Assembly: GCA_946408315.1 (NCBI GenBank)
Contig: CAMJRV010000015.1
Coordinates: 1 to 16,878, forward strand
Length of the DNA stretch: 16,878 nt
Origin: an uncultured Bacillota bacterium
GTDB taxonomy: Bacteria > Bacillota > Clostridia > Peptostreptococcales > Anaerovoracaceae
Direction: 5' to 3'
Positions 185 through 15,793 of this stretch are shown here, piece by piece. The notes beneath the pieces are model-generated. The model saw only the letters and a list, made by a program, of their open reading frames with translations, was not told where the DNA came from and did not search any database. Each line of letters opens with the position of its first letter. The stretch's first letter is position 1. Both the position numbers and the translations under genes were made by a program.

Positions 185-261
185 ATTTAACGGAGAAGGT
201 TCTGCAAATCGGATACGAGGTGCAGAATTTTATTTCATCGAACCGAATATTTCGGAAGAAA

Positions 262-462
262 GCAGCCCTAGACGTTGCACACCGAACCACATTTGTATCT
301 CAAATGCGGTCCGGTACGCAGGGCCGAAGAAGCAAAGGAGCACGGTGGCAGTCATGCTCTGGAAACTGACAGGCAAAAGGAAGGCTGCGGGACGATACTT
401 TGGAGAGACTTCATTCAATTGGAGCGCCAACGAGGCTATAACCAACAGGCAAAAGGACAGAG
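262..462 (+). promoter_or_regulatory. Tandem glycine riboswitch (two aptamers)
   Basis: Two copies of the conserved glycine-aptamer 3' core AGGCAAAAGGA are present, at about 371-381 and 447-457. Aptamer 1 is closed by a P1 helix, GCAGCC (262-267) with GGCTGC (383-388), and has the conserved GCCGAAGAAGCAA segment near 323-335. The linker GCGGGACGATACTTTGGAGAG leads straight into aptamer 2, as in known tandem glycine riboswitches. Aptamer 2 is closed by CTTTG (398-402) with CAGAG (458-462). Its internal GCGCCAACGAGGC segment departs from the usual GCGCCGAAGGGGCAA, so it may be partly diverged. The element lies on the same strand as, and 115 bases before, the saccharopine-dehydrogenase-family gene. 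No clear terminator with a T-run follows, so control could be translational or by an unrecognised fold. Confidence 0.88.
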
Positions 463-521
463 GAATTATGATTTGTAATCGGTCATAGGAATATTTGGTT
501 TCCAACTGCTGAGTAAGATTT

Positions 522-551
522 GCAGACAGCGTGGATTGATCGGCTGTCTGC
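522..551 (+). other. 9-bp hairpin between riboswitch and start codon
   Basis: GCAGACAGC (522-530) and GCTGTCTGC (543-551) form a perfect 9-bp stem with a 12-base loop. No T-run follows, so it is not a standard intrinsic terminator. It ends about 11 bases before the AAGGAGG ribosome binding site of the gene starting at 577. It could be part of the riboswitch expression platform or an mRNA-stabilising stem; the sequence alone does not decide. Confidence 0.6.
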
Positions 552-576
552 CGCCAAAAGCAAGGAGGAAAAGAAG

Positions 577-1935
577 ATGAGAATGTTATTGATCGGAGCA
601 GGCGCGGTGGGTGAATCCATTTTGCGTATCCTGGAGGTCAGAGATCCGAAGCGGACCTGGCTGGAGCACGTAGTGGTAGCCGATTGCAGCATGGAAAAAG
701 TAAGGTCGGTATGCGAGCACCTGAACGACAGCGACAGGTATACGCCGGAGTTTGTGGACGCCCACAAAGAAGAAGACGTGGTAAATCTGATCAAAAAATA
801 CGACTGTGATTTTGTCATGGACGCTGCGGCGCCCTATGTGACAAACCGGATTTTTGACGCGGCGTTTCAGGCGGGAGCGAAGTATGCGAATATGGGAACC
901 CTGTCCGTGCCCTTCGACCCGCCCCAATATGGAATCGGTCTGGAAAACTGCTATAAGGAACCGATGACGAAGTACAATTTTGACAGGCATGAAGCGTGGG
1001 CGGAAAAGGGAAACATGGCGGTGATCTGTCTGGGTATCGATCCCGGCGTCGTCAATGTTTTCGCTAAATTCGCGGCGGAATACCTTTTTGATGAACTCTA
1101 TGAGATCCATGTCAAGGATGGGGGTAACCTCACCATCCCCAGCGCCGGAGAGGACGATATCGCCTTCGGCTTCAATGTCTGGACGGTTCTGGACGAATGC
1201 ATCAATCCCAATGTGGAGTGGAACAAGGATTACGGTTTCATCGTAGACCGTCCTTTTGCCGGAGAGGAAACGTTCCAGATGCCGGCCGGAGTCGGCGCCA
1301 ATACCCTCGTCAAGATCGAGCATGAGGAGACGGTTACGATCCCCAGGTACCTGCAGCGGTACGGCCTTCGCAGGTGCACGTTTAAAATCGCCCTGGACGA
1401 CAATCTGGTAAAAGCGCTGAAGGTCATCAGCGCCCTCGGACTGAGAAGCCTGAAGCCCGTCGAAGTAGACGGTGTGAAGGTCATTCCAAGAGACGTAGTC
1501 GCCGCCTGTGCGCCCCAGCCGGAAGATCTCGGGGATGAGATGATCGGAAAGATGTGCGTGGGGATCCACTGCAAGGGAGTCAAGGACGGAAAGACGAGGG
1601 AAGTCTTCATGTACCAGCCTTTTGACAATCAGATCGCCATGAAAAACTGGAATATGCAGGTCGTGGTGGCTCAGACCGGATTTGGAGCCGCCGTAGGCAT
1701 TGAGCTCATCGGAAGGGGAATCTGGAACGACGCGGGCGTGTTCTCGCCGGAGTATTTCGATCCTATTCCGTTCCTGCGGATCATGGATGAGTCTGGGTTT
1801 GAATACGGTATCGTGGAAATGGATTCCGAATACAAGACGGTCAACGATAAGAAAATCATGGCCCAGATTTACAAGGAGGCAGCCAGGTCTCAGAAGGAGA
1901 AGGAGAAGAAAAGCGAGGGGAAACGCTCCAGATAA
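577..1935 (+). CDS. Saccharopine-dehydrogenase-family NAD(P)-dependent oxidoreductase
   Basis: The 452-residue protein opens with a Rossmann nucleotide-binding motif, MRMLLIGAGAVGES (GxGxxG at residues 7-12). It continues with the family's NADP domain (VMDAAAPYVTNRIFDAAFQAG) and a C-terminal catalytic-type domain starting around GIDPGVVNVFAKFAAE. Family members reduce or oxidise secondary amines formed between an amino group and an aldehyde: saccharopine, carboxynorspermidine and relatives. The sequence does not settle the substrate. The start at ATG 577 is chosen because AAGGAGG lies a few bases upstream and the Rossmann strand begins immediately; an in-frame ATG at 520 would put extra residues inside the leader hairpin. 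The tail is rich in Lys, Arg and Glu. The gene lies behind a tandem glycine riboswitch and ends at a strong terminator, so it is probably a single-gene unit. Family assignment is firm; the reaction is not. Confidence 0.88.
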   Translation: MRMLLIGAGAVGESILRILEVRDPKRTWLEHVVVADCSMEKVRSVCEHLNDSDRYTPEFVDAHKEEDVVNLIKKYDCDFVMDAAAPYVTNRIFDAAFQAGAKYANMGTLSVPFDPPQYGIGLENCYKEPMTKYNFDRHEAWAEKGNMAVICLGIDPGVVNVFAKFAAEYLFDELYEIHVKDGGNLTIPSAGEDDIAFGFNVWTVLDECINPNVEWNKDYGFIVDRPFAGEETFQMPAGVGANTLVKIEHEETVTIPRYLQRYGLRRCTFKIALDDNLVKALKVISALGLRSLKPVEVDGVKVIPRDVVAACAPQPEDLGDEMIGKMCVGIHCKGVKDGKTREVFMYQPFDNQIAMKNWNMQVVVAQTGFGAAVGIELIGRGIWNDAGVFSPEYFDPIPFLRIMDESGFEYGIVEMDSEYKTVNDKKIMAQIYKEAARSQKEKEKKSEGKRSR

Positions 1936-8693: not shown

Positions 8694-10271
8694 ATGAATC
8701 AATTATTTGAAGCGGTTAACAATGTCTTCGCATTTATAGTACCAATTTCTGATTTCTTATGGGATTTCCCGACAAATTTTGCATGGTATGCTCAAATTCC
8801 AATACTTGGGCATTTCTCGCTGGCAATTCTGATCCTGGTCGGCGCGGGAATTTATTTCACAACAAAGACCAGAGTGGTGCAGCTGAAGCGGTTTACGAGA
8901 AGTATTAAAATCGTAGCAAACCGCCAGGCGACTGAGACCGGTATTACTCCATTTGCGGCATTTATGCTGAGCTCCGCAATGCGCGTGGGCCCGGGGAATA
9001 TCATGGGCGTCACCGGCGCCGTTTCCGTCGGCGGACCCGGCGCACTGTTCTGGATGTACGTTATGGCTGCCTTCGGAATGGCGACCGGATTTACAGAGGC
9101 CGTGCTTGCACAGCTGTTTAAAGAGAAAAAGGAACAGGAATACGTCGGAGGGATGCCCTTCTACGGGATGAAAATTCTCGGCAATAAAAAGTGGATCGGA
9201 ATCGCACTTTCCCTGCTGTTTATCATCTATGCGCTGTTCAACGTTCCAAGCCAGACGTTCCATCTGTTTACGGCGCTGGGTTCGGTGGCGGACACCATCG
9301 GACAGACCACATACGACAGAACTTCCCCCGTCTATTACACGATCGGGATCATTTTGATCGTTGCGATCTCCGCCCTCGTTTTAGGCGGAATGAAGCGTGT
9401 CACAAGATTTACGGATATCTGCGTCCCCGTTATGGCGGTAGCCTATTGCGGAATTGTAATTTTATTGATCCTCATTAATTTTCAGGCGATCCCGTATTTC
9501 TTTAAAGCCGTAATTGGCGGAGCCTTTTCTCCCGACGCGATTTTCGGCGGCCTGTTCGGCGTAGCCTTGCAGCAGGGAATCAAAAGAGGACTTATGGCCA
9601 ATGAGGCAGGGCAGGGCACCATTACCATGGCGGCGTCCGCGTCCAGCAACAAACACCCGGTAGAACAGGGCCTGGTACAGTCTATGGGCGTATTTTTCGA
9701 CAGCTTTATCATCTGCTCGATGGCCGGATTTGTAGTAGTTATGGCTCACTTATGGACAGGCGACGGCGGCGTTGCCTGGGACAGCATTAAAGACGCCAAG
9801 CTTGACGTATTCATGCTGTCCGCACAGCATCTCGTTCCGGGCGTCGCCTTGGATTCGATCGTGCAGGTGATCCTCTCTCTCTGCTACGCGCTGTTTGCGT
9901 TCACCACCCTGATCGGCATGATCGTCTTTGCGGAAATCAGCGCCAACATGATTTCAAAAGACAAGAAATTCATCATGGGGATCAGAGCCCTCGGTTCCCT
10001 GTTCTTTGTGCCTTTTGGAGTTCTGACCGTATTGGCGAATTTACAGCTCGGGAACATCTGGTATCTTGCAGACCTGATGAACATCCTTCTCGTCTTTGTA
10101 AACGTACCGATCATTTTCCTGGGAAGCAAATATGTGATAAAAGCACTGGATCATTATAACAGGACCGACGGAAAATCAGGCTTCGTATCCCTGCGTGATA
10201 TCGATCTTGAAACGGACTACTGGACGGAAAAAAATCAGGCCGAGAGGGATTCGTTCTATAGTAAAGTCTGA
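8694..10271 (+). CDS. AGCS family sodium:amino acid symporter (alanine/glycine type)
   Basis: This 525-residue polytopic membrane protein has about ten to eleven hydrophobic segments. The AGCS signature is clear: LSSAMRVGPGNIMGVTGAVS then GGPGALFWMYVMA near residues 84-125, and later GLFGVALQQGIKRGLMANEAGQG and the SMGVFFDSFIICSMAG segment. The family couples sodium entry to uptake of small neutral amino acids such as alanine or glycine, and some members take D-amino acids. AGGAGGT lies just upstream. The gene follows the LysA-like gene by 12 bases and ends at a strong terminator, so both belong to the sigma-54 operon. It probably imports the substrate of that decarboxylase or a counter-metabolite, which is inference. 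Confidence 0.94.
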   Translation: MNQLFEAVNNVFAFIVPISDFLWDFPTNFAWYAQIPILGHFSLAILILVGAGIYFTTKTRVVQLKRFTRSIKIVANRQATETGITPFAAFMLSSAMRVGPGNIMGVTGAVSVGGPGALFWMYVMAAFGMATGFTEAVLAQLFKEKKEQEYVGGMPFYGMKILGNKKWIGIALSLLFIIYALFNVPSQTFHLFTALGSVADTIGQTTYDRTSPVYYTIGIILIVAISALVLGGMKRVTRFTDICVPVMAVAYCGIVILLILINFQAIPYFFKAVIGGAFSPDAIFGGLFGVALQQGIKRGLMANEAGQGTITMAASASSNKHPVEQGLVQSMGVFFDSFIICSMAGFVVVMAHLWTGDGGVAWDSIKDAKLDVFMLSAQHLVPGVALDSIVQVILSLCYALFAFTTLIGMIVFAEISANMISKDKKFIMGIRALGSLFFVPFGVLTVLANLQLGNIWYLADLMNILLVFVNVPIIFLGSKYVIKALDHYNRTDGKSGFVSLRDIDLETDYWTEKNQAERDSFYSKV

Positions 10272-11826: not shown

Positions 11827-11853
11827 GAAATCACAATGAATCGGAGGAGAAGA

Positions 11854-12954
11854 ATGGCCAGAACAATGATAGACAGCACACCCAAAAAGGATGGATTTAA
11901 AATGCCGGCAGAGTTTGATACGCATGAAAAGTGTTGGATGCTATGGCCTGAGCGTCCGGACAACTGGAGACTTGGCGCTATGCCCGCGCAAAAGGTATTT
12001 GCAGAAGTCGCTTCGGCTATTTCAAAGTTCGAGCCGGTGACTGTAGGCTGCAGCTCAGATCAATTTGATAATGCCAGGGCGATGCTGCCGGAAGAAGTAA
12101 GAGTTGTTGAAATGGCCCATGATGACGCATGGATCAGAGATTGCGGTCCCGCCTTTATAAGAAATGATCAAGGCGAGATACGCGGCGTTCATTTTGGATT
12201 TAATGCGTGGGGAGGGCTTTATGACGGTTTATACTTTCCGTGGGATAAGGATCAAAAGGTTTCTCAAAAAATAATGGAAATTGAAAGCTGCATCCGATAC
12301 GATGCCCGGCACTTCATATTAGAAGGCGGCTCCTTTAGTGTAGACGGAGAAGGAACAGTCATTACGACAGAAGAATGCCTGCTGAGTCCGGGACGCAACC
12401 CTAAAATGTCCAAGGAAGAAATTGAAGAAAATCTGAAAGAGTATCTTGGCGCTGAAAAAGTAATCTGGCTGCCCCGCGGCATTGATCCGGAAGAAACCAA
12501 TGGACATGTTGACGACGTCTGCTGCTTTGCCAGACCGGGAGAAGCGGTAATCGCATGGACTGACGATGAAATGCACCCTTATTATGATATCTATAAAGAG
12601 GCGCGCGCCGTTCTTGAGAACACCGCCGACGCAAAGGGAAGAAAATTAAAGATCCATACGGTCCCCTGCTTAAGACCCCAAAAACTAACGAAAGAGGAAG
12701 CGGAAGGCGTGACCAGGGGCAACGCAATACAGCGGATGGAAGGAGATGAATATGCCCCTTCTTATATGAACTATTTAACCGTAAATGGGGGCATTATTTG
12801 TCCGCAATTCGGACTTGACAGCGACATTGAGGCGGTAAAAGCGCTGCAAAAAATATATCCTGACAGGGAAGTCGTTGGAGTATATACCCATGAAATAATT
12901 TTAGGAGGAGGAAATATTCATTGTATTACACAGCAGCAGCCGAAAGGAAAGTGA
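11854..12954 (+). CDS. aguA: Agmatine deiminase
   Basis: The 366-residue enzyme hydrolyses agmatine to N-carbamoylputrescine and ammonia in the cytoplasm. It closely resembles Enterococcus faecalis agmatine deiminase as remembered, starting STPKKDGFKMPAEF and WPERPDNWR. The known catalytic residues fall at the same numbers: D96 in WIRDCGP, E157 in LEGGSF, H218 and D220 in NGHVDD, and the nucleophile C357 in GGGNIHCITQQ. That agreement supports ATG 11854, which also has GGAGGAG five bases upstream; an ATG at 11836 in the same frame would precede the ribosome binding site. No carbamoyltransferase or carbamate kinase gene follows. Instead a YtcJ-like amidohydrolase starts 17 bases after the stop, so the fate of carbamoylputrescine is open. 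Confidence 0.96.
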   Translation: MARTMIDSTPKKDGFKMPAEFDTHEKCWMLWPERPDNWRLGAMPAQKVFAEVASAISKFEPVTVGCSSDQFDNARAMLPEEVRVVEMAHDDAWIRDCGPAFIRNDQGEIRGVHFGFNAWGGLYDGLYFPWDKDQKVSQKIMEIESCIRYDARHFILEGGSFSVDGEGTVITTEECLLSPGRNPKMSKEEIEENLKEYLGAEKVIWLPRGIDPEETNGHVDDVCCFARPGEAVIAWTDDEMHPYYDIYKEARAVLENTADAKGRKLKIHTVPCLRPQKLTKEEAEGVTRGNAIQRMEGDEYAPSYMNYLTVNGGIICPQFGLDSDIEAVKALQKIYPDREVVGVYTHEIILGGGNIHCITQQQPKGK

Positions 12955-14614: not shown

Positions 14615-15793
14615 ATGATAGAGAAAACAGACGCAAAACTTGTAAATCCGAAAGACTTGGAACTGCTGGAGAAAATTAACCCCCTGGACTTCAGGATGCC
14701 TGCCGACTTTGAGCGGCAAGGAGCCACCTGGCTCGTCTGGCCACATGATTACACCTGGAAAGGGGAAGGCTATACGTCATACCAGCTTAAACTGGAAAGA
14801 CAGTGGATAAAGATGGCAGATATTCTCACAAGATATGGCAATAAAGCAAATATCATAGTTCAGGATGGACGGATCAGAGACCATGCGGACCATATGCTCA
14901 CTTATTACGGTGTTGATATGAAAAAAGTAGAGTACTTTGAGATTTCCAGTGACGATATTTGGATTTGCGACCCATCTCCTGCCTTTTCCGTCAATGCAAA
15001 AGGAGAAATGATCGGAATTAACTGGACCTTTAACGGATGGGGCGGGAGATATCCCAGTGAAAATGATAATAAAATAGCGCCCTTAATGTGCGAAAAGCTT
15101 GGGATTCCTTATTTCTCTCCTCCGCTCTGTCTCGAATCGGGACATGAGCTGAATGGAAAAGGAACCTTTATTGCGACCAGGACATCGATCATAAATCCGA
15201 ATAGAAACCCCCACTTAAATCAGCAGGAAGTCGAGAAAATATTAAAAACCTACATAGGCGTCAAGCATTTCATATGGCTGTCCGGCATGAGCGGAGACGA
15301 TCCGGAATTAGGACCTGAGGACACAGATTGCCATATCGATCTTGAGACCAGATTTGTAAATGAAAATACACTTTTGTACCGCTGGCCCGAGGACGAAAGC
15401 GGACCCTGGTTCGAACGGGTCACGAAGGTTCATATGGAAGAACTAAAAAATGCCGTTACGGAATCCGGTAAAAAAATCGAGATCGTAAAGGTTCCCGCTC
15501 CAAAAAATACGTATTGGACAACGGAAAACGTCGGCGGCGGCGGGGGAATGCAGGCATTGGGAGCTCGAAAAGAGTGTATGGGAAGTTATCTCGACTGGCA
15601 CGTGGCCAACGGAGTCGTAATGGTTCCTGTGTACGGGGATGTTAACGACGAGCGCGCTTTAAAGATCATCCAGGAGCACTTTCCGGGCCGCGACGTGATC
15701 GGGATGGATATTCGTGAAATTTGGGAGAACGGCGGCGGCAACCATTGTGTCACAAAAGCACAGCCCCAGGGAATCCCCTGCAGATTAAAATAA
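14615..15793 (+). CDS. Divergent agmatine-deiminase-family protein (guanidino hydrolase of unknown specificity)
   Basis: This 392-residue relative of agmatine deiminase (PAD_porph family) has about 25 extra N-terminal residues. The catalytic set is kept: D119, E174 (LESGHE), H240 and D242 (DCHIDL), and the nucleophile C378 (GGGNHCVT). Surrounding substrate-site positions differ from aguA 1.6 kb upstream: WIRDCGP has become WICDPSP, EGGS has become ESGH, GHVDD has become CHIDL, and one residue is missing between Asn and His before the nucleophile. It is therefore probably an active guanidino-group hydrolase with a different or modified substrate. AGAGGAG precedes the ATG. It is the third gene of the run and is followed by a terminator. 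An inactive or regulatory paralogue is possible but less likely, as the catalytic residues remain. Confidence 0.88.
   Translation: MIEKTDAKLVNPKDLELLEKINPLDFRMPADFERQGATWLVWPHDYTWKGEGYTSYQLKLERQWIKMADILTRYGNKANIIVQDGRIRDHADHMLTYYGVDMKKVEYFEISSDDIWICDPSPAFSVNAKGEMIGINWTFNGWGGRYPSENDNKIAPLMCEKLGIPYFSPPLCLESGHELNGKGTFIATRTSIINPNRNPHLNQQEVEKILKTYIGVKHFIWLSGMSGDDPELGPEDTDCHIDLETRFVNENTLLYRWPEDESGPWFERVTKVHMEELKNAVTESGKKIEIVKVPAPKNTYWTTENVGGGGGMQALGARKECMGSYLDWHVANGVVMVPVYGDVNDERALKIIQEHFPGRDVIGMDIREIWENGGGNHCVTKAQPQGIPCRLK

Follow-up and report, generated by a model that had tools for sequence, protein, structure and literature searches.

The stretch of DNA analysed here (the window, 16,878 nucleotides from an uncultured Bacillota bacterium of the family Anaerovoracaceae) carries near its start a tandem-aptamer RNA that is followed, on the same strand, by a gene of the saccharopine dehydrogenase (SDH) family. 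A search of the whole window with Rfam cmscan returned a single RNA above its gathering score, RF03166 (glycine-GGAnGA), with 143.2 bits against a gathering score of 110 and an E-value of 2.1e-31 (8.9e-33 when bases 1-700 alone are searched). The match is full-length, all model positions 1-177 being covered, and the structure line of RF03166 places within it two glycine-type aptamers, each with its own P1, as well as a pairing between leader and linker; a second, lower-scoring match of the same clan is omitted from the Rfam listing, where its name is not given. The SDH gene starts 112 nt after the end of the RNA. The features of the region are the following:

252-464, plus strand: tandem variant aptamers, RF03166 glycine-GGAnGA (cmscan)
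252-260, plus strand: 5′ leader, with 252-254 paired to the linker at 393-395 (structure line of the RF03166 alignment)
261-389, plus strand: aptamer 1, with P1 at 261-268/382-389 and J1/2 UAGA at 269-272 (RF03166 alignment)
369, plus strand: A matching U81 of Vibrio cholerae in aptamer 1, CUGACAGG versus CU[C/U]UCAGG
398-462, plus strand: aptamer 2, with P1 at 398-402/458-462 and core at 426-450 (RF03166 alignment)
445, plus strand: A matching U81 in aptamer 2, CCAACAGG
499-571, plus strand: second conserved leader element, UUUCC-AA-CUGCUGAGUA-[hairpin]-CCAAAAGCAAGGAGGAAA, with a predicted stem over the Shine-Dalgarno sequence
563-568, plus strand: Shine-Dalgarno sequence AGGAGG
577-1935, plus strand: SDH-family gene, 452 aa, 'type A' (PF03435, PF16653)

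The first-pass annotation had described two glycine aptamer cores with P1 helices upstream of an oxidoreductase gene on the same strand, and this arrangement is borne out by the RF03166 match and the gene behind it, as is its remark that the AGCS transporter gene of the window (8694-10271; TIGR00835, 301.6 bits, cut-off 272.65) lacks a riboswitch, since 252-464 is the only Rfam match above gathering score. Its naming of a glycine riboswitch before the SDH gene was right in that a tandem-aptamer riboswitch is present, but not in the type, which is the variant modelled by RF03166 and not the standard glycine riboswitch. At 281-317, P2 of aptamer 1 has 37 bases against 2 in the model, and P3b of aptamer 2 is very short. 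In the same-genus loci L008 and L010, long inserts resembling a repeated element occupy the P2 of aptamer 1, the window insert being shorter. Locus L107 (around position 1580) holds a variant copy in which the P3b of aptamer 2 is still long and from which the homologous positions can be read; it is perhaps an intermediate between the standard and variant forms.

Assignment to the variant type follows from the core motifs, both of which are identical to the RF03166 consensus in the window RNA, because the core motif separates variant from standard copies. The best-family call alone does not discriminate, since RF03166 is kept as the best family of its clan for the window RNA but likewise for two standard-type copies of the same genome, listed under RF03166 with 93.8 and 68.9 bits, below the gathering score. 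RF03166 exceeds its cut-off in 21 of the 297 genomes of the order, and by motif 15 of these carry the variant type and six the standard type (L006 and L110-L114). We take RF03166 to be one of the glycine variants of Weinberg et al. 2017. In the accessible passages of one paper mentioning glycine-GGAnGA, RF03166 is singled out as exceptional with regard to score thresholds.

Further copies were collected by an RNA-only scan whose exact pattern describes the core of aptamer 2 and derives from the RF03166 consensus together with L001, L004, L005 and L008. It overlooks copies that deviate from it, as happened with L107 and L108, which were added via RF03166 instead. This pattern occurs in 66 loci of the species-genome collection, all titled Clostridia or other Firmicutes, and the 81 matches on loci fetched through the scan and the searches for relatives reduce to 70 distinct copies when identical 153-nt stretches are collapsed. 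The first downstream gene is an SDH gene in 51 distinct copies, an amino-acid permease in 11, a cation efflux gene in six and neither of these in two (L073, where the locus ends after 152 nt, and L074, where an amidohydrolase follows). In eight of the 11 permease-first copies SDH comes next within the locus; for the permease-first L044 and L091 an SDH-B gene lies further along the contig, and the likewise permease-first L038 has no SDH in its locus. The permease is also the second gene in five SDH-first copies; none of its model matches reaches the cut-off, and an amino acid transporter and a basic amino acid/polyamine antiporter (L060, L086) rank highest. Since an SDH-family gene is in addition downstream in all 15 variant-type genomes of the order, the pairing that the first-pass annotation had proposed to look for in relatives does recur. 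At an E-value of 1e-60, SDH was found in one of 291 genomes across the class, namely the window's own, with five copies. Locus L129 (G000:C366) holds a second SDH copy, 89% identical over 232 residues and followed by a permease, its upstream part being lost at the contig end. Amidohydro_3 proteins, lipoprotein-like by eye, are encoded directly behind the riboswitch in L074 and as the third gene of the operon in L086. Six loci (L041, L042, L049, L068, L069 and L079) have a cation-diffusion-facilitator gene after the variant RNA and keep a U in aptamer 1 (CUAUCAGG), and are perhaps a further sub-variant; in L048 a gene of this kind comes after SDH.

The base of the binding pocket equivalent to U81 is the one preceding CAGG, as placed by alignment to the V. 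cholerae sequence. In the window it is A in both aptamers (A369 and A445). Among the 70 distinct copies, of which 65 were parsed by pattern and the other five read individually, aptamer 1 has A in 58, G in four and U in seven, the motif being absent from one (L074); U is found in all six cation-efflux copies and, in addition, in the SDH copy L077. In aptamer 2 the pattern used for the search itself prescribes the A of the other copies, which therefore give no independent count. This sets the variant apart from RF00504, since the loci of the order first classed as standard type (41 loci, 43 strand matches) carry U in 40 of 43 matches; of the other three, two come from L107 and L108, now recognised as variants, and one is a chance match in L002. 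Two further glycine-type copies in the window's genome both have U at this position, and one of them sits, by eye, upstream of a thioredoxin-reductase-like gene. In the passages seen of a structure preprint, U81 is placed at the pocket and its Fusobacterium nucleatum equivalent is quoted as contacting the carboxylate, but the preprint's own data favour another orientation of glycine. As a chemical guess, replacing a hydrogen-bond donor to a carboxylate by an acceptor from an ammonium group at this base would be in keeping with an amine as ligand. The small size of the glycine pocket counts against a long polyamine.

The overlap of the aptamers with a terminator indicates how the switch may work. 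In 61 of the 70 distinct copies (L086 being a doubtful case among them), a terminator hairpin before a U-run uses the 3′ strand of P1 as its 5′ arm. These relatives are predicted to be ON switches, because a P1 stabilised by ligand would block a terminator built on its own 3′ strand. Of the remaining copies, four (the window copy among them) lack a U-run in range and five fail the criterion; in the window copy no terminator was seen within the range considered. There, control may act on the Shine-Dalgarno sequence through the second leader element, judging from its predicted pairing. This element is common to 11 distinct copies (window, L045, L008, L050, L059, L073, L086, L088, L092, L097 and L108) and precedes the SDH gene in the copies seen, the gene being cut off after a few codons in L073. 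It shows one compensatory G-C/A-U position: rows with GAAUA have U before AAAAGC in three of three cases, two of them from one genus, and rows with GAGUA have C in seven of eight, L108 conforming only after a one-base shift. The stem rests on this comparison of sequences, because the stability of the minimum free energy fold of window positions 440-600 does not exceed that of shuffled sequences (z -0.44). No Rfam match to the element was found in bases 1-700, and its pattern was recovered in one of 61 genomes, the window's own, a weak negative given that the gap limit of 40 misses longer same-genus spacers.

It is the gene neighbourhoods of the variant copies that narrow the search to polyamine metabolism. 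The clearest operon is on L172, the contig of the record behind L062, where the riboswitch is followed on one strand by SDH, PotD, P-II, PotA, PotB, PotC, a second SDH paralogue, a putrescine aminotransferase and an aldehyde dehydrogenase. Its PotA scores 392.2 bits with TIGR01187 (cut-off 355.6) and its putrescine aminotransferase 682.8 with NF008570 (cut-off 612) and 493.2 with TIGR03372 (cut-off 658.65); PotB (304.9, cut-off 348), PotC (282.9, cut-off 326) and PotD (238.3, cut-off 582) are below cut-off though best matches. Pot-like genes for spermidine/putrescine transport were found in eight of the 70 loci, several of which are close relatives: downstream in L035, L039 (a lone PotD at the end of the locus), L056 and L062, divergent in L082 and L095, and upstream in L070 and L071 (35-49% identity). 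In L157 the riboswitch is followed in turn by a permease, SDH-B, an aldehyde dehydrogenase and a small lyase-like protein, and about 4 kb on lies a second cluster with a putrescine aminotransferase (NF008570, 657.7 bits, over cut-off) and a further copy of the aldehyde dehydrogenase. L093 encodes an aldehyde dehydrogenase that shares 96% identity, over the matched part, with the one in L157; CoA-acylating models fit it best, all below cut-off. In L159 (Clostridium sp. MD294) aminotransferase, aldehyde dehydrogenase and lyase-like gene stand together. A close aldehyde dehydrogenase (at least 58%, fragments included) is present in eight of 12 SDH-B genomes, beside SDH-B in four of them, and none was found at E 1e-60 in three of the 12; among the 11 SDH-A genomes searched the best was 45%, with none in three. 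Operons with polyamine transport or metabolism genes are thus a feature of relatives and not of the window itself: in most SDH-A loci no further polyamine gene was found within the fetched stretch, nor was one found in the window's own operon. The window does encode two agmatine-deiminase-family proteins, at 11836-12954 (TIGR03380, 552.7 bits, over cut-off) and 14615-15793 (228.8 bits, below cut-off), both at least 10 kb from the riboswitch.

The SDH protein of the window matches Sacchrp_dh_NADP (PF03435) with 52.2 bits and Sacchrp_dh_C (PF16653) with 58.7 bits, against Pfam gathering scores of 25.1 and 31. An AlphaFold2 model (mean pLDDT 86.9) has as its nearest folds in the PDB 4ina, 8deb, 4rl6 and 8h4z. 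Two of these, 8deb and 8h4z, carry the label carboxyspermidine dehydrogenase (the enzymes of Bacteroides and Helicobacter), while 4ina and 4rl6 are labelled saccharopine dehydrogenase; lysine dehydrogenase, saccharopine reductase and homospermidine synthase come lower in the list. The fold is the same as in these four structures (TM by target 0.85-0.89) at 21-27% identity, and where 4ina and 8deb read YLDTANYE, the window protein has YANMGTLS. A further contrast to carboxyspermidine dehydrogenases is that no decarboxylase partner (nspC, TIGR01047) exceeds its cut-off in any of six variant-RNA genomes, weaker matches occurring in four and the window's metagenome-assembled genome (MAG) being 67% complete. 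The fold near carboxyspermidine dehydrogenases, the missed cut-offs of nspC and of the synthase model discussed below, and an nspC-like fragment beside another paralogue lead us to propose that SDH is an NAD(P)-dependent polyamine dehydrogenase with a catabolic role, which would oxidise the secondary amine of a polyamine to an amine and an aminoaldehyde.

Taken with the RNA type, the gene pairing, the changed pocket base, the overlap of P1 and terminator in relatives and the polyamine genes in a minority of loci, all of which were observed directly, this points to a switch that would turn on the uptake and breakdown of polyamines, in which a glycine variant with a changed pocket would sense a polyamine, a diamine or a close product, and SDH would be the catabolic polyamine dehydrogenase. 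We hold the chance of this reading to be slightly better than even. Ligand binding would hold the P1 of aptamer 2 together, so that in most relatives the intrinsic terminator would be avoided and genes for the uptake and oxidative breakdown of polyamines turned on. SDH, as a relative of carboxyspermidine dehydrogenase, would then oxidise a secondary amine to a smaller amine and an aminoaldehyde, which in some lineages could be processed by the aldehyde dehydrogenases and the CoA-lyase. In the window copy, control would perhaps be translational. The cation-efflux group, L074 and L077 are unaccounted for by the polyamine reading. The wider claim, that this is a second natural class of polyamine riboswitch, a rebuilt glycine aptamer acting in gut and soil Clostridia as ON switch for polyamine import and also for an NAD(P)-dependent polyamine dehydrogenase of a new kind, whose aminoaldehydes enter CoA-dependent fermentation, we put forward tentatively, as something a little short of an even chance.

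The variant RNA could also sense an omega-amino acid such as beta-alanine or GABA; these arise when polyamines are broken down and are close homologues of glycine, keeping its chemistry and adding one or two CH2 groups. This would fit the lyase-like gene and aldehyde dehydrogenase that accompany SDH-B in some loci, as well as the carbon-nitrogen hydrolases in the vicinity of L078 and L036. With the model of 3-aminobutyryl-CoA ammonia lyase, an enzyme of lysine fermentation, the lyase-like protein scores 114 bits against a cut-off of 160, and its close homologues in Anaerotignum and Intestinimonas are given that name by some sources. It presumably resembles beta-alanyl-CoA lyase. Beta-alanine as the whole story was reduced to a rival once the Pot-like genes and the putrescine aminotransferase were found, as these indicate amine substrates, and the base that has changed is the one reported, in the preprint passages seen, to contact the carboxylate in F. 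nucleatum, with the orientation in dispute. We consider an omega-amino acid ligand rather unlikely.

Another possibility is that SDH makes a carboxy-polyamine or an opine-like amino acid, or serves lysine metabolism, and that the RNA senses an intermediate of that route. The only NCBIfam match of the protein is indeed carboxynorspermidine synthase (NF043000), lysine dehydrogenase and saccharopine reductase appear in the fold list, and the lyase model belongs to lysine fermentation; but the NF043000 score is 153.6 bits against a cut-off of 800, the nspC matches in the variant-RNA genomes are at best weak, and the predicted ON logic suits breakdown better. In L126 (G000:C309) of the window's MAG, a distinct SDH paralogue is directly followed by an nspC-like fragment at the contig end, likely a pair for carboxy-polyamine synthesis, and such a fragment adjoining a different paralogue speaks against the same role for the riboswitch-associated enzyme. 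On these grounds carboxy(nor)spermidine synthesis was dropped as the role of SDH, and the possibility as a whole appears quite improbable.

The polyamine reading also replaces the view of the first-pass annotation that glycine is the ligand and that the enzyme takes part in glycine metabolism. Glycine is probably not what the window RNA binds, given the variant core, the A at the U81 position in both aptamers, the polyamine genes in a minority of neighbourhoods and the statement, in the part seen of a review that leaves the variants unspecified, that core-mutated glycine riboswitch variants reject glycine; and no glycine cleavage or glycine reductase gene was noticed by eye in the neighbourhoods read. 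An RNA that still senses glycine in the ordinary way despite its core changes, together with a glycine-handling enzyme, would explain the unchanged architecture, the cross-matching of standard copies to RF03166 and the standard motif in six of the 21 over-cut-off genomes, but is very unlikely; control of a glycine enzyme by glycine was dropped on core type, pocket base and neighbouring genes.

With the standard riboswitch of RF00504 the variant shares the tandem aptamers, the leader-linker pairing and, in relatives, the overlap of P1 and terminator; standard copies, as far as the sources were accessible, serve glycine-cleavage and transport genes, and the genes of the variant copies differ. 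The window RNA agrees with RF03166 in score and in both core motifs; the present analysis adds a gene context, a predicted ON logic and a proposed ligand. The 2017 PNAS paper on glycine variants may already list these gene associations. Our literature search, which left most subscription journals uncovered, returned no paper with both 'glycine riboswitch' and 'saccharopine dehydrogenase', and in the passages searched glycine-rejecting variants are reported with no ligand named for them.

A precedent for an aptamer re-adapted to a polyamine is the spermidine riboswitch, a SAM-I variant (PMC10853860). In the passages seen of that work, a known aptamer has likewise been adapted to another ligand in association with polyamine genes, but the scaffold is another one and the riboswitch is an OFF switch on biosynthesis, whereas the variant here looks like an ON switch for uptake and breakdown. 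Its authors state there that more polyamine riboswitches must exist. If the reading proposed here is true, the variant would be another polyamine riboswitch class, one that turns breakdown on rather than synthesis off, and a reaction would be suggested for a large clostridial family that is labelled only saccharopine dehydrogenase.
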